Shown here in pieces: positions 1 through 8,474 of a DNA stretch of 12,728 nucleotides; the first letter of the stretch is position 1; each line of letters starts with the position of its first letter. The stretch is from Fidelibacterota bacterium (GTDB taxonomy: Bacteria; Marinisomatota; Marinisomatia; SCGC-AAA003-L08; TMED6). Below the pieces are notes generated by a model. The model was not told the DNA's origin and did no database searches. It saw only the letters and a program-made list of their open reading frames with translations. The translations under genes were made by a program, and so were the position numbers. The DNA is taken from positions 1 to 12,728 of the forward strand of contig JAAZYZ010000018.1 of NCBI GenBank assembly GCA_014239355.1. The letters are read 5' to 3'.

Positions 1-2025
1 GAAATTAGAACATCAGATGAAAGTTACTATAAATGGAATCAATGGATTTTTTCTAAATTATATGATTCAGGTTTAGCTTACCAAAAAGAAGCATTAGTTA
101 ATTGGGACCCTATTGATCAGACTGTTCTTGCTAATGAACAGGTTTTATCTGATGGTACTTCTGAGAGGTCTGGTGCAAAAGTTATTCAAAAACCACTAAA
201 GCAATGGTTCTTTAAAATTACAGATTATGCAGATGAGTTATTGAATTTTGAAGACTTAAATTGGCCTAAAAAAACTATTGCTATGCAAAAAAATTGGATA
301 GGTAAAAGTGTAGGTGCTTCGATTTATTTTGAAATATCTGGTTTTGATGAAAAAATTGAAGTATTCACAACAAGACCAGATACAATATTTGGTGCGACAT
401 ATATTGTGTTGTCCCCAGAGCATCCTTTGACAAAAAAAATTTCTAACAATAGTGCTGAGATTTTAGAGTATATTCAAGATTCAGCATCAAAAAATGAGTT
501 ACAAAGACTTGATTTGAATAAAGATAAAACTGGTATTTTTACTGGAGCGTATGCTATTAATCCGGCTAATAATAAGAAGGTACCAATTTGGATTGCGGAC
601 TATGTCTTAGTTTCTTATGGTACTGGAGCAATAATGGCTGTTCCAGCTCATGATGAAAGAGATTTTGAGTTTGCAAAAAAATATGATATTTCGATAGATA
701 TAGTTGTTGCAAAAACAAAAGAATTAGAGATTAGTGAAGAACCAATTTTTGAAGAGGGTTTTTCTGTTAATTCTGATTTTTTGGATGGCTTATCAACAAA
801 AGATGCAAAAAAGAAAATTATTAGCTGGTTAGAAGAAAAGTCATCAGGTAGGAAAGAGGTCAATTTTAGATTAAGGGATTGGTTGATATCAAGGCAAAGG
901 TACTGGGGTACTCCTATCCCAATTGTTTATGACCCTAAAGGTAAACCACATTTAGTTCCAGAAGAGCATTTGCCATGGAAATTACCTAATGATGTAGAAT
1001 ATAAACCTAAAGGGACATCTCCATTAGGCTCTTCAAAGGAATTGCTTGAAAGAACAGAATCTATATTTGGTAAAGGTTGGAAACCTGAGATTGATACTAT
1101 GGATACTTTTGTATGTTCTTCTTGGTATTATTTAAGGTACGTAGATTCAAAAAATAATAAGGAACCTTTTTCTCAGGAATCCCTTAATTGGCTTCCTGTT
1201 GACTGTTATGTAGGCGGAGCTGAACATGCAACAATGCATCTTTTGTATGCAAGATTCATAACTAAAGCTCTTAGAGATTTAAAATTAGTTAATTTTGATG
1301 AACCTTTTAAAAAGTTATACCATCAAGGAACAATAACAAAAGATGGTGCTAAAATGTCTAAATCAAAAGGGAATACAGTTGCCCCTGATCAATTTATAGA
1401 ACAATATGGTTCTGATACATTTAGAATATACTTAATGTTTATGGGACCCTATGATGAAGGTGGAGATTGGAATGATAAAGGCATTAAGGGGATTTATAGA
1501 TTTTTAAATAAAATTTGGAAATTAGTTTCTTTGCCTGATACTAAGAATATCAATAAAGAAACAGATCAATTAATGCATCAGACTATAAAAGTAGTTACCG
1601 ATGATCTATGTAAAATGAAATTTAATACATCAATTAGTAGGTTAATGGAGCTTGTTAATAGTGTAAGCGGAGAAGATTCTATTAGTCCTACTTTTAAGAA
1701 GAATATTGCTTTATTGTTAGCTCCGTTTGCACCTCATTTATCTGAAGAAATTTGGTTTCTAATAGGTAATAATTCATCTATATTTAATGAGTCTTGGCCA
1801 AAGTACAATCCTTTGAAATTAGAAAAAGATGAAATGAATGTTGTTATTCAGGTAAACGGTAAAGTACGAGCAAATATATCGCTGCCAAAGGGGTTAGATA
1901 AGGATGAAGTTTTAAAACAATGCAAACAGTTAGATAATGTTACTAAATATTTAGATGGAAATGAATTAATAAAGGAAATTTATGTTCCTGAAAAAATAGT
2001 TAATTTTGTGGTAAAAATAAGATGA
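1..2025 (+). CDS. leuS: Leucyl-tRNA synthetase, 5' end missing
   Basis: Charges tRNA-Leu with leucine in the cytoplasm. The frame is open from base 1 to the TGA at 2023-2025 (674 residues seen). The start and the HIGH motif lie upstream; by comparison with E. coli LeuRS roughly 150 residues are missing. Seen in order, counting from base 1: the conserved VNWDP and DQTVLANEQV stretch, the CP1 editing domain with TTRPDT (residues 123-128) and AVPAHDERD (213-221), the RLRDWLISRQRYWG segment, GGAEHATMHLLYARF, the KMSKS loop (451-455, bases 1351-1365), and the C-terminal domain with VIQVNGKVR and the IYVPEKIVN ending. The CCWRC-type zinc cysteines of E. coli are absent (RSGA instead), and the leucine-specific insertion before KMSKS is essentially missing, as in several non-proteobacterial LeuRS. 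The TTG at 241 is internal and not the start. The gene overlaps the next by ATGA. Confidence 0.98.
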   Translation, partial: EIRTSDESYYKWNQWIFSKLYDSGLAYQKEALVNWDPIDQTVLANEQVLSDGTSERSGAKVIQKPLKQWFFKITDYADELLNFEDLNWPKKTIAMQKNWIGKSVGASIYFEISGFDEKIEVFTTRPDTIFGATYIVLSPEHPLTKKISNNSAEILEYIQDSASKNELQRLDLNKDKTGIFTGAYAINPANNKKVPIWIADYVLVSYGTGAIMAVPAHDERDFEFAKKYDISIDIVVAKTKELEISEEPIFEEGFSVNSDFLDGLSTKDAKKKIISWLEEKSSGRKEVNFRLRDWLISRQRYWGTPIPIVYDPKGKPHLVPEEHLPWKLPNDVEYKPKGTSPLGSSKELLERTESIFGKGWKPEIDTMDTFVCSSWYYLRYVDSKNNKEPFSQESLNWLPVDCYVGGAEHATMHLLYARFITKALRDLKLVNFDEPFKKLYHQGTITKDGAKMSKSKGNTVAPDQFIEQYGSDTFRIYLMFMGPYDEGGDWNDKGIKGIYRFLNKIWKLVSLPDTKNINKETDQLMHQTIKVVTDDLCKMKFNTSISRLMELVNSVSGEDSISPTFKKNIALLLAPFAPHLSEEIWFLIGNNSSIFNESWPKYNPLKLEKDEMNVVIQVNGKVRANISLPKGLDKDEVLKQCKQLDNVTKYLDGNELIKEIYVPEKIVNFVVKIR

Positions 2026-2348
2026 TTTTAAAAGCTATATATAAGAATAGATTTTATTTTTGGATACTTTTTTTCTCGATGACTTTTATATCATATTTAT
2101 CTATATATAAATCTTTAGTTATTGATCGTACCTACTCTTTAATTCCATTTTATTTTTTAAGTTATATGTCTTTATTTAGTTTACTTCAATTATTGTCTAT
2201 ACTAATCGTTGTGGCTATTTTATCTAAATTTAATTTAACTAAAATTAATGCAGAGGCGTTAAAGATTATTGATATAAAAAAAAATATAGTATTAATTTAT
2301 AGTTTGGGTTTGTACTTGTTTATTACAATTCTTATAAGGACTTTATGA
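2022..2348 (+). CDS. Small three-helix membrane protein, unknown function
   Basis: I do not recognise this 108-residue protein. It is very hydrophobic, with three likely membrane helices at about residues 11-29, 40-68 (long) and 89-105, and basic residues at the N terminus and between helices 2 and 3. No catalytic motif or cysteine pair is visible. Its ATG overlaps the leuS stop (ATGA, 2022-2025), and its own stop overlaps the next start in the same way (2345-2348). Both overlaps support a real gene translated by coupling to leuS. It may form a complex with the membrane-anchored protein encoded next; that is inferred only from the overlap. The call as a gene is fairly secure; the function is open. 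Confidence 0.75.
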   Translation: MILKAIYKNRFYFWILFFSMTFISYLSIYKSLVIDRTYSLIPFYFLSYMSLFSLLQLLSILIVVAILSKFNLTKINAEALKIIDIKKNIVLIYSLGLYLFITILIRTL

Positions 2349-2905
2349 TTAAAAATATTTTATATGTAGTTGGAGTTTTAGGAACTTTAGTTTTTTATTA
2401 TTTATTCTATGAATATCAAAATAATAGATTTCTCAGTTTGGATAATCAATTAAACGAAATTAATCAAAAATTAGATTCAATTGTCTTGAAGGATGAAAGT
2501 TCATTAAATACTGAATCTATCAATTATAAAGAAAATAATATTGTAAAAAATAAAATAGTAAATTTTTCTGATTCCTTAATCAACCTGTTTGATAATGATG
2601 ATAAAATTAAAAAAATTACCGAAATTCAAAACAATGTTACTAATAATAATATTAAGACAGTTGTAGATACTTTTTGTTATGACTTGTCAGAGCAATATAA
2701 AATCATAAACTTTTATAATAATAAAATTCGAATTAAAAATATATTAATACCTGGTTCTATATTAATGTCAATAAATGATTCTTTAGTTCATAATGATGTT
2801 ACGTACATATTGAAAGAAATTAATGGGGAAGGTAGCTATATAAGGTTGCATAACCCAAATAATGATACCTTTTGCAAGTTTCATAAAATCAAACAAAGCT
2901 TATAA
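2345..2905 (+). CDS. Membrane-anchored protein with coiled coil, unknown function
   Basis: A 186-residue protein I cannot assign. One N-terminal membrane helix (about residues 4-22) is followed by a short heptad-like stretch (about 29-48) and an asparagine-rich linker to about 105. The C-terminal part (about 125-180) alternates hydrophobic and polar residues as a small beta domain would. The tetrapeptide DTFC occurs twice (108-111 and 174-177), holding the only two cysteines, so a disulfide is possible if this part lies outside the cytoplasm. The layout (anchor, linker, small beta domain) recalls periplasmic connector proteins such as GspC or PilP, but no signature supports that. ATGA overlap with the preceding gene indicates co-translation. 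It is the last gene of the leuS run and faces a convergent gene. Confidence 0.7.
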   Translation: MIKNILYVVGVLGTLVFYYLFYEYQNNRFLSLDNQLNEINQKLDSIVLKDESSLNTESINYKENNIVKNKIVNFSDSLINLFDNDDKIKKITEIQNNVTNNNIKTVVDTFCYDLSEQYKIINFYNNKIRIKNILIPGSILMSINDSLVHNDVTYILKEINGEGSYIRLHNPNNDTFCKFHKIKQSL

Positions 2906-2945
2906 ACTATAATAGGAGAGTATATTAGAATTGGACTATACTTAG

Positions 2946-2969
2946 TATATTATGACTATACATAATATA
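2946..2969. terminator. Inverted repeat between convergent genes, possible bidirectional terminator
   Basis: A perfect 9-bp inverted repeat with a 6-nt loop (arms 2946-2954 and 2961-2969) lies in the 82-bp gap between the stop at 2905 and the convergent stop at 2988. The position suits a shared terminator. The stem has only one G-C pair and no clean T tract follows on either strand, so it is weak by the standard rule and could be chance in such AT-rich DNA. Confidence 0.3.
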
Positions 2970-2987
2970 TATTATCAGAATAAAGTG

Positions 2988-4271
2988 TTAACTGTCAGAT
3001 TTTCTTCTATTACAAGGCATGCACAAAGCTTGCCCATTAGAAATTGAAGTCTTTCCGCCTTGTGAATAAGGGGTAATATGATCTGCTTCAAACCTATTGT
3101 CACCATCCATAGATATTGTTCCTTTGCACTTTTCACTATTATACCAGGATGCTTTGATATTAGCTTGACACTTTCCATTAGAACGTCTAAAAAGTATAAA
3201 CCTTTGATTATCTGTAAAACTTCTCCGTCCCTTTAGTGCTAAATCAGGAATATCTGCAAGAATGTATCTAAGTAAAATTTCATGAATTAATGTTTGATTT
3301 CCCACACTATCACTTCTGGCTGCATTAATAAAATCAATAAAAATTGGGTTTTGCTTATCTTCATCTTTCTCTTTATCAAGAGCTCTTTCATCTTCAAATT
3401 TTTGATAAGCGATACCTATTTGCTTTACTGCGTCATCGTTGATATTATATAGATTTCTTATATGGTTCATTAAGAATGGAATTCTAATTAAAGTATATTT
3501 TTTTAATTTAATTTCTCTATCTTTTAATGCTGAGAATGTTAAATCCATAGATCTTTTAATATCACTCATAATTCTATCAAGTTCTGTCGAAGGATTCTGA
3601 TTTTCTTTATAACTTTTTTTAATATCATCAGGCCTAATTGAGGATATTGCCTGCTTATAAAATTGATGAAATATTTTTGAACAGCCATCTTCGTATGCAA
3701 ATCTTTTATCTTTAAAACCAAAAATATTAGAATTTGAAAAAATATCATGTGTTCTTAATTCTTGTATTTTTAAGGGAACTTCTCCTGGGTAAGATCTCCT
3801 CTTTTCAGCAGCATTTAAGGGCGTACCTTCTTGTAATCTGCTAAACATTTCTTTTTCGTCATTCTCACTCCAATGGGTTAATACTACAACATCTAAATTC
3901 ACATTTAAAAAATTTAATTGAGTTTCATCATCTAATTCATCAAATTTTTTATTAGCAACCTCTTTTCCGTTTATCGGATCAAATTCTGGATTTAATGCAA
4001 ATTCGTTATTAAGGTATTCTTGAACTGTACCTATTCTTTGTTGTCCATCTACAACATCGTATTGCTTTAATGAAATATTATCACTTTTAAATTTTTTACT
4101 AAAGTACAACTTTGGTATGTCCATTGATCTTAAAACAGAGTCAATTAGTAATTGTTTTTGATATTTAGACCAAACCTTTTCTCTTTGGTATTGAGGAATA
4201 TTAATTTTTCCTGCTTCAAAAAAATGCTTTAAATTTGATATATTAAATGATTCTGTTTTTTTATCTCTCAT
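2988..4271 (-). CDS. DUF262 (GmrS-like) protein with C-terminal HNH nuclease
   Basis: A 427-residue protein with two parts. The N-terminal DUF262 domain has the hallmark IPQYQREKVW (residues 25-34), the DGQQR motif (75-79) and the later EMFSRLQEGTPLNAAEKRR stretch (141-159). In the GmrSD family this ParB-like fold binds or hydrolyses nucleotide. The C terminus (about 360-427) is an HNH/McrA-type nuclease: cysteines 368 and 382, EADHI with D397-H398, N412 in SNGQALC, then C417-x2-C420. All positions expected for metal and zinc binding are kept, so it looks active. The nuclease is an HNH with zinc cysteines rather than the DUF1524 domain of GmrD. Relatives act in modification-dependent restriction and phage defence. 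The start is divergent from the methylase-like fusion gene 67 bp away, and the two are probably one system (inference). Only a weak AGCGGA precedes the ATG. Confidence 0.9.
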   Translation of the reverse strand: MRDKKTESFNISNLKHFFEAGKINIPQYQREKVWSKYQKQLLIDSVLRSMDIPKLYFSKKFKSDNISLKQYDVVDGQQRIGTVQEYLNNEFALNPEFDPINGKEVANKKFDELDDETQLNFLNVNLDVVVLTHWSENDEKEMFSRLQEGTPLNAAEKRRSYPGEVPLKIQELRTHDIFSNSNIFGFKDKRFAYEDGCSKIFHQFYKQAISSIRPDDIKKSYKENQNPSTELDRIMSDIKRSMDLTFSALKDREIKLKKYTLIRIPFLMNHIRNLYNINDDAVKQIGIAYQKFEDERALDKEKDEDKQNPIFIDFINAARSDSVGNQTLIHEILLRYILADIPDLALKGRRSFTDNQRFILFRRSNGKCQANIKASWYNSEKCKGTISMDGDNRFEADHITPYSQGGKTSISNGQALCMPCNRRKSDS

Positions 4272-4338
4272 AATTCCGCTTTTTATTATTAAATTATTAT
4301 TAGTTTAACGATCGTAACATAATAAATTTTATTTTGAA
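4272..4338. promoter_or_regulatory. Divergent intergenic region with 8-bp palindrome
   Basis: These 67 bp must hold the promoters of both divergent genes. The stretch is nearly all A/T except a perfect palindrome ACGATCGT at 4308-4315, about 24 bp from the plus-strand start and 37 bp from the minus-strand start. It contains a GATC site. It is a reasonable operator candidate for shared autoregulation. I see no convincing -35/-10 pair on either strand, so no promoter is placed. Confidence 0.4.
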
Positions 4339-6084
4339 ATGAAAATAATTAAAAATATAAGTGATTTTATAATAGAATTTTATTCTTTTAATAATTTTAA
4401 AAGTGCTTGTCATTTCACATTAAACACTTCAATTGATAGCCGTGTAAATACTGACCATTTAAAAACCACAAAAAGAGCCAACATAATTGTTAGTGATCTA
4501 AATATTCATTCTGGACTAAAAGATATAAAAGACAAATATGATTTAATAATATGTGAATTTCCATTTAAAATAAAACCATTTATTAATGCATCGGATAGCA
4601 TTACTATGTATAAAGATGAATTTTTAATATTTCAAAGCTTATCTTTAATTAAGAATAATGGTTATGGTTTAATTATAACTCCCCCAACCTTTTTTGAAAA
4701 TACTCATTCTCAAAGATTTAAAAAATTTCTAGAATCTAAAGGTTTTTATATTAATATGTTTATTGAATTAAATAAATTTCCTATTAAAAAAGTAGATATA
4801 CCTACAGATGCTGAAGAGTATGAAAAATTTCAAATACATCAAAATAGATACACTTTCAATCCATGCTTGTTAGTAATATCTAAAAAAACATCTAAAAACC
4901 TTTTTATTTTAGAATTAAATGCAGATGTAGATGTTTCTAAAATATTTTTTAATTATTCAAATAAAATAAGTCAGAATATACAAAAAGGTATTTTTGTTGA
5001 TAATTCTCAAAATAATTTCAGTTCAATTAATAATTATAAAATCAAAAAAGAATTAGACAAACTTTTAATTAATTATGAAGATTATAAACAAGTAAAATTT
5101 AAAAATATTATTAAAGACAATGGCTTTAAAAGTATTGCTTCAGGAAAGAGTTATAATGAACAAAAAAATGCAATATATTTCCCTAGAATTGGTAGAGGGA
5201 AAATTCATTGCAATGTTGATGATGTTACTATTAAACATCACAATATTTATCAATTAATATTAGATGAAAAAATAATTATCAATCAATATGCAGCATTATT
5301 CTTCTCCTCCGATTTGGGTAATTTTATACGGACTTCATTAAATACTGGTTTATTTATACAAAGTATAACAAAAAAATCACTCGAAGACTGTTCTTTTCCT
5401 GTCCCTTCAATTAAAAAGCAAAAAATTATAATTAAAACAACAGAAAAATTAAGTTTATTAGAAAGTAAAATAAATTCATATAAAAATAAAATTAGTATTA
5501 ATCCTAATTCTGTTTTATCGATATTAGATGATGCTAATAGACTGCTAGGACAATTTAATTTGGTGAGTAAAGCAGATAAGGTTGTTAATTTAATTAATAA
5601 GGGTGAATCAAAGAGGTTGGAGTTTAAATCTAGTTTTCGTCAAAATTTAAGATCAAATAAATTTGATATAGAAATGCAATATGTTATTATGAAAACTATT
5701 AATGCTATGTTAAATACTTTGGGCGGAACATTATTAATAGGAGTTTCTGAAGATGAGGCTGGTGATGGAAAAGTTATTGGTATTGAACATGATAAATACA
5801 AAAATAATGATAAATACAATCTGGCCATTAAGCAGTTTATTGAAAATTACATGTCAAAAACAGTAGCTTCAAAAATAAATATTTCATTTATTGGGATAGA
5901 TGAAAAACAAGTATGTGTAATAGAGGTACCAATAATAAAAAAAACTTGGATGAGATATAAAGAAGAATATATCAATGGAAAACGAGTAATTGGAAAAGGG
6001 AAACTGGTAGAAAAATTATTTATTAGAACAGGTCCGAGCTCTAAAGAGCTTTTACCAAGTGAGGTTGATCAGCATTTTAATTAA
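4339..6084 (+). CDS. Fusion: degenerate adenine methylase + HsdS-like TRD + AlbA_2/Schlafen-like domain
   Basis: A 581-residue protein with three parts. Residues 1-190 resemble the second half of an HsdM-type N6-adenine methyltransferase: KYDLIICEFPF (67-76) sits where YDLIxxNPPF is expected, then LIKNNGYGLIITPPTFF (103-119) and PCLLVISKK (175-183). SAM motif I is missing and NPPF reads EFPF, so methylation is unlikely. Residues 250-385 resemble an HsdS target-recognition half with SFPVPSIKKQKIII (352-365) and a following helix. Residues 418-580 form an AlbA_2 domain: GESKRLEFK (422-430), NTLGGTLLIGVSED (459-472), FIRTGPSSKELLPSE (561-575). E423 and E428 have the E-x4-E spacing of Schlafen nucleases. 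An in-frame TAA at 4315-4317, with no start codon between it and 4339, and the divergent gene upstream show that the short N terminus is genuine. Composition is extremely AT-rich. Likely role: target recognition plus effector in defence, paired with the DUF262-HNH gene (inference). Confidence 0.85.
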   Translation: MKIIKNISDFIIEFYSFNNFKSACHFTLNTSIDSRVNTDHLKTTKRANIIVSDLNIHSGLKDIKDKYDLIICEFPFKIKPFINASDSITMYKDEFLIFQSLSLIKNNGYGLIITPPTFFENTHSQRFKKFLESKGFYINMFIELNKFPIKKVDIPTDAEEYEKFQIHQNRYTFNPCLLVISKKTSKNLFILELNADVDVSKIFFNYSNKISQNIQKGIFVDNSQNNFSSINNYKIKKELDKLLINYEDYKQVKFKNIIKDNGFKSIASGKSYNEQKNAIYFPRIGRGKIHCNVDDVTIKHHNIYQLILDEKIIINQYAALFFSSDLGNFIRTSLNTGLFIQSITKKSLEDCSFPVPSIKKQKIIIKTTEKLSLLESKINSYKNKISINPNSVLSILDDANRLLGQFNLVSKADKVVNLINKGESKRLEFKSSFRQNLRSNKFDIEMQYVIMKTINAMLNTLGGTLLIGVSEDEAGDGKVIGIEHDKYKNNDKYNLAIKQFIENYMSKTVASKINISFIGIDEKQVCVIEVPIIKKTWMRYKEEYINGKRVIGKGKLVEKLFIRTGPSSKELLPSEVDQHFN

Positions 6085-6091
6085 AAATATT

Positions 6092-6109
6092 TAAAGTAAT
6101 ACTTTAAGT
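6092..6109. repeat. 18-nt near-palindromic repeat, copy 1
   Basis: TAAAGTAATACTTTAAGT is identical to a second copy at 8481-8498. It is built on an 8-bp inverted repeat around a single central base (arms 6091-6098 and 6100-6107). It lies 7 nt after the stop of the fusion gene and 43 nt beyond the acsA stop, in a convergent gap. No T tract follows, which argues against a classic terminator; operator or REP-like element are alternatives. Confidence 0.55.
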
Positions 6110-6139
6110 ATAATTAATAATATCTATATTTATTTTACT

Positions 6140-6151
6140 CTTATATATAAG
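6140..6151. terminator. 12-bp palindrome before a T-rich tract, weak terminator candidate
   Basis: CTTATATATAAG is a perfect palindrome sitting one base beyond the acsA stop (6153-6155). On the plus strand it is followed by TTTATTTTTTG, so it could help end transcription of the fusion gene. The stem is nearly all A-T and has no room for a loop without melting, and the T-rich tract overlaps the acsA 3' end, so confidence is low. Confidence 0.25.
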
Positions 6152-6152
6152 T

Positions 6153-8069
6153 TTATTTTTTGTTTAAAATAAGAGATTCTACCACTGATGGGTCTGCCAA
6201 TGTTGAAATATCACCCATATTATCGATATCATTCTCAGCAATCTTACGCAGAATTCGTCTCATTATTTTACCTGATCTTGTTTTAGGTAGACCTGGATTA
6301 AATTGAATTTTATCGGGTGAAGCATGAGGACCTATAATCTCACGCACCTTGGCTCTAATACCGTTTTCAATATCAATACTCTCCTCTATTCCTGTCATCA
6401 AAGTAACAAAGGCATAGATTCCCTCTCCCTTAATATCATGGGGGTATCCTACAATAGCGGCCTCTGCCACATCTTTGAACTGGCCAATAGCTCCCTCAAT
6501 CTCAGCGGTCCCAAGTCTATGTCCTGAAACATTAAGCACATCATCTACCCGACCTGTAATCCAGTAGTATCCATCCTCATCTCTTTTAGCTCCATCTCCT
6601 GTAAAGTAATACCCCTTGAAATCTAATAGATAGGTATCAATAAAACGTTGATGGTCTCCATAAATGGTTCTCATCTGTCCTGGCCATGAATTTTTAATCG
6701 CTAATAAGCCCTCTGCTGGACTTGTATTTATTTCATTTCCATCAGGGTCCATTATAACAGGTTGAATACCAAAAAAAGGTGTGGTTGCAGATCCTGGCTT
6801 TAATTGAGTAATGGCAGGAAGAGGTGATATCATAATTCCTCCTGTTTCAGTCTGCCACCAGGTATCCACAATAGGACATCTTTCCTGCCCTACAATTTTA
6901 TAATACCAGTCCCACTCCGGTTTTTTGATGGTCTCCCCTACCGATCCTAATAATTTTAAAGATGAACGGTCCCATTTTGTGACAAAATCATCCCCTTCTT
7001 TCATAAGAGCCCTAAGAGCGGTAGGTGCAGTATAAAAAATATTTACCTTATGCTTTTCCACTATCTGCCAAAAACGTCCAAAATCAGGGTAATTTGGGAC
7101 TCCTTCAAACATCATGGTGGTCGCTCTGTTAGCCAAAGGGCCATAAATAATATAGGAATGCCCTGTAATCCAGCCAATATCTGCCGTACACCAGTAAATA
7201 TCTCCTGGCTGATAATCAAAGATTAATTCATGAGTATAGGATGCGTAGACCATATAACCGCCAGTTGTATGTAAAACACCTTTAGGGGTTCCGGTTGATC
7301 CTGAAGTATATAAAATAAAAAGAGGATCCTCTGCATCCATGGTCTCTGGCTTACAGATAGCTGATGAATCTTTAATGGTCTCATGCCACCATAAATCTCT
7401 ATTGTTTTCCATATTAACTTCAGTACCTGTTCTTTTAACCACAAAACAGTATTCAATAGAAGGGCATTTTTCTAAAGCTTTATCTGCATTTGATTTCATA
7501 GGTATATCCTGCTTAAGTCCTCTAACACCTGTATCTTGTGTAATTAGAGTCTTACATTTAGAATCATTAATTCTATCTGCTAGCGAATCCGGTGAGAATG
7601 CACCAAAAACAATGGAGTGAACAGCGCCAATTCTGGCACAGGCCAGCATAGCAATAGAGAGCTCTGGTATCATCTGCATATACAGACATACCCTATCTCC
7701 TTTCTTGATATTATGAGATTTTAAAACATTTGCGAATTTTGATACTTCCAAGAGTAATTCTTTATAGGTATAGGTTTTATGACTTTCAGGGTTATTTCCT
7801 TCCCAAATAAGTGCATTTTGATCACCATGACCACTTTCTATGTGCCGATCAAGACAGTTGTAGCTGGCATTTAGCTTTGCATTTTCAAACCAGCGGATAT
7901 TTCCTTTATTAAAATCTACTTCTGATACATTGTTCCATTTGCTGTACCAGGTAATTCTATTAGCAACCGAACTCCAGAAGCTGTCAGGATTTTTTATAGA
8001 TTCTTGATATAAGGAATTGTAATCTTCTATTGATTTTACGTGAGCTTTATTTAAATCTTTATAATTCAA
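6153..8069 (-). CDS. acsA: Acetyl-CoA synthetase (AMP-forming)
   Basis: Converts acetate, ATP and CoA to acetyl-CoA, AMP and PPi in the cytoplasm, allowing acetate use. The 638-residue length fits the family. Seen: N-terminal NCLDRH (71-76) and ALIWEG (86-91), the ATP-binding loop [10 protein letters not shown] (255-264), the acetate-pocket motif [11 protein letters not shown] (401-411) with the double Trp that restricts the pocket to small acids, [20 protein letters not shown] (488-507), and PKTRSGK (595-601), whose K601 is the known acetylation-control lysine. The start is TTG at 8069-8067, directly after the TAA of the upstream gene in the same frame. No ATG or GTG is nearby, and the N terminus aligns with E. 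coli Acs, so the TTG fits. An AGAAAG about 8-10 nt upstream could serve as a weak ribosome site. GC is visibly higher than in neighbours, as for a well-expressed gene. It is probably co-transcribed with the denV homologue. Confidence 0.97.
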
Positions 8070-8474
8070 TTATTTTGTCTTTCTATACCAATTAGGTTTC
8101 ATTGCAATTTTTTCTTCTATTCTTTGTCTTATTAATTTATAATCCTCAGGGTTTGGAGTCCAGTCATTATATAAATCATTTTTAACAAAGACATCTTTAG
8201 GGAATATTCTTGTCTTATCTGGGTTAAATCCTCGTTTTTTCATTTCTTCAATTAACTCTTGGTAGCGTTTATCTAGATATTTACCTTTATTGTAAAAAAA
8301 ATAAACATGACCAGTATTTAATGTGTACTGCTTAGGAACTTTAGATTTTTGGTAACCACTTTTACTAACTAAAGTCCTCTTTAAGCTACCTCCCACCATA
8401 AATATCTCCCTATATTCAGCGATTAGATGCTGATCAGTCAGCTTAGATGCTTCTATTAAATTTATACGGGTCAT
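8070..8474 (-). CDS. denV: Pyrimidine dimer DNA glycosylase/AP lyase (T4 endonuclease V family)
   Basis: Repairs UV damage: it cuts the glycosyl bond of cyclobutane pyrimidine dimers and nicks at the resulting abasic site. At 134 residues it is near the 138 of T4 DenV and matches from the first residue. MTRINL supplies the N-terminal Thr2 whose amine is the nucleophile after Met removal; DQHLIAEYRE (14-23) keeps H16, R22 and the catalytic E23. TGHVYFFYNK (residues 54-63) with the later EEMKKRGFNPD, and the C-terminal EEKIAMKPNWYRK (120-132), are also family features. T4 Arg26, involved in DNA contact and catalysis, is Met here (EIFM in place of ELPR), and the C-terminal tail is shorter. The symbol is by homology with the phage gene. 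It abuts acsA with no spacer, in the same frame. A near-palindromic repeat covers the region just upstream of its ATG. Phage origin is possible but unproven. Confidence 0.93.
   Translation of the reverse strand: MTRINLIEASKLTDQHLIAEYREIFMVGGSLKRTLVSKSGYQKSKVPKQYTLNTGHVYFFYNKGKYLDKRYQELIEEMKKRGFNPDKTRIFPKDVFVKNDLYNDWTPNPEDYKLIRQRIEEKIAMKPNWYRKTK

Follow-up and report, generated by a model that had tools for sequence, protein, structure and literature searches.

The 12,728-nt stretch of Fidelibacterota DNA analysed here (the window) carries two intact divergent genes. One encodes a DUF262-HNH protein of 427 amino acids (aa). The other encodes a fusion protein of 581 aa, in which an HsdM-like core without catalytic motifs (pseudo-HsdM) and one HsdS-type domain (half-HsdS) are joined to an AlbA_2 domain with the acidic positions of Schlafen proteins. 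An earlier reading of the DNA (the original prediction) had proposed the divergent arrangement with 67 bp between the genes, which the coordinates of the open reading frames (ORFs) confirm, and the domain make-up, which was recovered by Pfam and structure modelling. The features are as follows.

2988..4271, minus strand: DUF262 (GmrSD_N)-HNH nuclease gene, 427 aa (ORF, Pfam, family alignment, structure model)
4272..4338, no strand: divergent intergenic region, 67 bp (ORF coordinates)
4339..6084, plus strand: pseudo-HsdM/half-HsdS/AlbA_2 fusion gene, 581 aa (ORF, domain searches, family, model)
4339..5028, plus strand: HsdM-like methylase fold, residues 1-230; motif I absent, motif IV degenerate
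5035..5508, plus strand: one HsdS-type target recognition domain and a long helix (half HsdS), residues 233-390 (sequence and model)
5566..6081, plus strand: AlbA_2/Schlafen domain, residues 410-581; E423, E428 and E471 at SLFN13 active-site positions

The AlbA_2 domain (PF04326) of the window fusion scored 61.1 bits against a gathering cut-off of 25.3, and the same domain was matched in 20 of the 21 members of set A1 (E<=1). Residues were compared in an alignment of 27 fusion members, which omits 13 rows of the protein search that are 80-86% identical to an included member, P0003. The Schlafen glutamates E423 and E428 are kept in all 27, and the third active-site acid is aspartate in 26 and glutamate in the window protein. 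These positions were matched to the E-E-D triad of SLFN13 (E205, E210 and D248) by counting along the 5yd0 alignment. The catalytic motifs of the methylase are lost, as had been predicted. The motif IV pattern (N/D/S)PP(Y/F/W) was found in none of the 27 members, one of which (P0014) begins after that region, compared to five of five adjacent true HsdM proteins; the window fusion reads EFPF where N/D-PP-Y/F would stand. The S-adenosylmethionine-binding motif I (DPxxGxG) is absent from the window fusion and present in three members (P0020, P0022 and P0023). An HsdS subunit is defined by two target recognition domains and two conserved helices, and sequence and model together revealed one such domain in the fusion. 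Longer forms that retain a recognisable HsdM show the origin of the N-terminal part: P0021 (HsdM_N; N6_Mtase, E 4.1e-81) and P0144, on a Pseudoalteromonas plasmid (N6_Mtase, E 3.7e-55).

The protein search, in which 7,995 candidates were scored, returned at least 23 members of the fusion family, a lower bound. A genome scan using the recognition region found 16 loci, all of which (16/16) encode the fusion at full length (532-586 aa), with a start and a stop codon, in a search that favours intact copies; three rows flagged one stop inside the match, which is the gene's own terminal codon. Judged by these open frames, the fusion is a real family, beyond a simply decaying relic. By record title, the hosts are Gammaproteobacteria (two), a deltaproteobacterium, Desulfococcaceae, Chloroflexi/Anaerolineae, Calditrichota, Chlorobium, Kapaibacterium, families of Bacteroidota, Cloacimonadota, Shapirobacteria and an ANME-2 archaeon, the genomes being mostly metagenome-assembled genomes (MAGs). 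The fusions of the ANME archaeon and a deltaproteobacterium MAG are 82% alike over the recognition region, a sign of transfer, or possibly of a MAG binning error. A genome scan using the window fusion protein alone gave no match. No phage record matched the fusion; seven plasmid records did, none of them over 80% of its length, and scans of viral contigs matched neither the fusion nor the DUF262-HNH gene. The literature searched, which excluded bioRxiv and most subscription papers, gave no description of a Schlafen-HsdM/HsdS fusion in the titles, abstracts and passages covered, so its novelty in print is provisional.

To place the fusion in its context, 17 loci were compared (the 16 genome loci and one plasmid locus), with 4.5-20.6 kb of DNA examined in each. 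Seven loci have type I hsd genes close to the fusion, and two have remnants (L010 and, below the family cut-off, L005). ORF comparison and contig searches with HsdM_N and Methylase_S revealed none in the other eight (L004, L006, L007, L008, L009, L011, L013 and L015). The predicted connection to restriction-modification (R-M) and defence is supported. The original prediction had also named the contrary outcome, a mere type I R-M relic always adjacent to hsd genes, and the distribution over the 17 loci does not fit it. The fusion lies within 50 bp of an hsd gene in the first five of the seven arrangements below.

L012: hsdM-fusion-hsdS-hsdR, the hsdR carrying its own AlbA_2
L018: hsdR-hsdS-hsdM-fusion
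L019: fusion-hsdM-hsdS..hsdR
L016: nuclease-fusion-hsdS, the hsdS cut by the contig end; hsdM and hsdR not seen
L001: nuclease-fusion-hsdM-hsdS-SLFN-hsdR
L017: hsdM-hsdS-hsdR-AAA-McrC-fusion
L014: hsdM 4.6 kb from the fusion

Quantification of HsdM_N matches inside the 16 genome loci gave four, compared to an expectation of 0.14 at the density of matches across these genomes (Poisson 1.3e-5). Genome-wide, HsdS and HsdM_N were each matched in 14 of the 16 fusion genomes, some of the HsdS matches being the fusion itself, and each in 9 of 14 control genomes.

Individual loci hold further genes of interest. The HsdR of L012 (6749-10204; 1151 aa) carries its AlbA_2 at the C-terminus and shares an operon with the fusion, a second way in which AlbA_2 joins restriction parts. 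A nuclease matching the PADLOC candidate PDC-S02 is directly upstream of the fusion in L001 (3767-4702; E 6.4e-7), with Mrr_cat just under cut-off, and in L016 (726-1670; E 8.3e-157), with NucS_C. A protein kinase resembling the mad6 and PD-T4-6 models is encoded 15 bp upstream in L009 (8111-9253), and the C-terminal part of a KwaB-like protein 87 bp upstream in L013 (1985-2326).

The DUF262 domain of the other window gene scored 69.6 bits (Pfam cut-off 33.2), with DGQQR at residues 75-79. The HNH core is at D397-H398, and the Pfam scan matched PF01844, HNH_5 and HNH_4. In the structure model, residues 1-162 adopt the BrxU/SspE/ParB fold and residues 349-427 the McrA/Cas9 HNH fold. The protein thus has in common with GmrSD/BrxU, SspE and DndI the DUF262 N domain with DGQQR, the ParB-like fold and the C-terminal HNH. 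In contrast to GmrSD, its HNH is of the PF01844/McrA type, and the GmrD domain DUF1524 (PF07510) gave no match up to E 1; it is also shorter, at 427 aa, than most of the listed solved chains of BrxU, SspE and DndI (557-588 aa). The best PADLOC match was NsnA, a label left unexplained by the literature. Searching with this protein returned 1557 relatives at E<=1e-3, and phage records gave partial DUF262 or HNH matches only (seven records). One relative, at 31%, sits between a methyltransferase and a helicase in an R-M-like operon of a Rhizobium plasmid. RloF is a DUF262 protein within Campylobacter hsd loci (PMC4619093), which shows that hsd loci can have DUF262 proteins as companions as well.

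The explanation we favour, tentatively and at somewhat less than an even chance, is that the fusion is an effector assembled from type I R-M parts, with RNase activity and PrrC-like control. Through its pseudo-HsdM/half-HsdS part, the fusion would either occupy a DNA target as a dimer or join a type I R-M complex. Its AlbA_2 domain would be an RNase, most likely tRNA-cutting, held silent in either state. Phage attack on restriction, or its disarming, would release this RNase, which would then stop the infected cell, as PrrC does beside EcoprrI. An RNase effector tied to a type I R-M operon and silent until restriction is attacked is described for PrrC/EcoprrI (PMC2610378, PMC3710099). A wider version is possible but more doubtful. 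Here, the methylase, though without catalysis, would still read a DNA target, and perhaps its methylation state, and control a fused Schlafen/SAMD9-type tRNase, such that failure of restriction leads to translation shut-off. The family would then be a widespread, undescribed class of sequence-aware antiviral RNases to which different lineages have added a nuclease (DUF262-HNH in the window; PDC-S02, of PD-(D/E)XK type, in L001 and L016).

Several observations weigh against the fusion being an RNase effector under restriction control. At the third active-site position, the window protein has glutamate rather than aspartate, beside an insertion, and binding of DNA/RNA is also described for AlbA domains (PMC5445408). 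Eight of the 17 loci have no hsd gene in the DNA examined (four of these span only 6-8 kb), and none was present among the eight window proteins scanned with Pfam. On a tree of the fusion (26 rows, P0014 dropped as short), hsd linkage is scattered, with 8 changes compared to a shuffled mean of 7.6. By this scatter, a fixed hsd partner is not established; rather, the fusion seems to enter and leave hsd operons.

The original prediction joined the two window genes into one defence system, in which the fusion would recognise a DNA target, or the methylation state of one, and license the DUF262-HNH nuclease next to it. The genes are adjacent and divergent in the window, and their nearest relatives, fusion P0002 (74%, 578 aa) and DUF262-HNH protein P0025 (83%, 427 aa), each come from a 4,673-bp contig. 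We take this to be one contig, and hence the pair to recur in the nearest relative. DUF262 and AlbA_2 also occur in one chain, in P0147 of S. meliloti pSymA (L002:2354-4489; GmrSD_N/DUF262 N-terminal, AlbA_2 C-terminal) and in a Haloquadratum plasmid protein annotated as DUF262 with a match to the AlbA_2 region (L023:2360-4486), which favours a functional tie. Among the rows listed and the loci compared, however, this nearest relative is the only one to show the pair. A DUF262 gene shared the fusion's contig in none of the 16 genomes and was among the ORFs of none of the 17 loci, contigs being short in places, although DUF262 genes occur on other contigs in eight of these genomes. The 23 fusion rows and the best 120 of the 1557 DUF262-HNH rows had no further contig size in common, the window's own aside, and P0026, a 75% DUF262-HNH relative on a 103,819-bp contig, had no fusion relative at that contig size among the matches listed. 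The far greater number of DUF262-HNH relatives and the placement of one in the Rhizobium R-M-like operon likewise argue against a single system. Among 398 genomes from the phylum of G004, the DUF262-HNH family (E<=1e-40) occurred in two, too few to gauge pairing. Pairing as a general rule is rejected on the counts over genomes and loci, and a joint system in the window is unlikely. The neighbouring DUF262-HNH gene most likely encodes a separate nuclease of GmrSD/SspE type that senses modification and has been retained beside the fusion in this lineage. Genes of both kinds are companions of restriction systems, a possible reason for their meeting here.

We consider it similarly improbable that the fusion is a regulatory decoy, which competes with HsdM/HsdS for assembly or target sites and so tunes type I restriction, with an AlbA_2 domain that only binds nucleic acid. 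A dead HsdM with half an HsdS does resemble a dominant-negative subunit, and the fusion abuts hsd genes in five loci. This leaves unexplained both the copies with no hsd gene nearby and the invariant E423/E428 pair. Less probable again, and by some way, is that the fusion is a functionless leftover of a type I R-M system. The hsd remnants of L010 and L005 would fit such a leftover, as would the copies that adjoin housekeeping genes (L006 and L007). Against it stand the full-length frames in every genome locus, even in a search that favours intact copies, the residues that are invariant across phyla, and the sign of transfer between archaeon and deltaproteobacterium, if this is not a binning error.

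The RNase effector that we favour has partial counterparts among known systems. PrrC/EcoprrI and RloC, R-M-linked tRNA anticodon nucleases, would be analogous as RNase effectors linked to type I R-M. PrrC pairs an ABC-NTPase with a HEPN RNase (PMC3710099), unlike the window fusion with its Schlafen-type domain on a dead HsdM/half-HsdS. Linkage to an hsd operon, expected of a PrrC-like guard, is mixed: seven of the 17 relatives have hsd genes nearby, two have remnants and eight none, and no hsd gene was seen among the window genes scanned. Schlafen/SAMD9 tRNases and bacterial Schlafen defence proteins have in common with the fusion the AlbA_2 fold and the acidic active-site positions, but the rest of the fusion is R-M derived. 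Bacterial Schlafens in defence are the subject of a 2025 preprint by Taboada and colleagues. With type I HsdM/HsdS, the fusion has in common the HsdM core fold and the HsdS-type recognition domain; it differs by the lack of a motif IV match in all 27 aligned members and of motif I in all but three of them, by its single recognition domain and by the extra AlbA_2. If the favoured explanation is true, an RNase fused to a dead methylase subunit can serve restriction enzymes as an alarm of their own, and type I restriction is tied to the same effector domain that serves animals in antiviral defence (Schlafens, SAMD9). The fusion offers a testable case for the role of a pseudo-methyltransferase in a defence locus.

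Promoter and terminator scans around the gene pair were uninformative; the 41 promoter-like matches in 1950-6400 lie inside the range of the shuffles (36.7, standard deviation 6.3). Elsewhere in the window, two small AT-rich ORFs (~20% GC) follow the leucyl-tRNA synthetase gene at 2022-2905 and have no Pfam match above cut-off. A gene of the Pyrimidine dimer DNA glycosylase family (Pyr_excise, E 3.9e-17) is located at 8070-8474, directly upstream of acetyl-CoA synthetase on the same strand.
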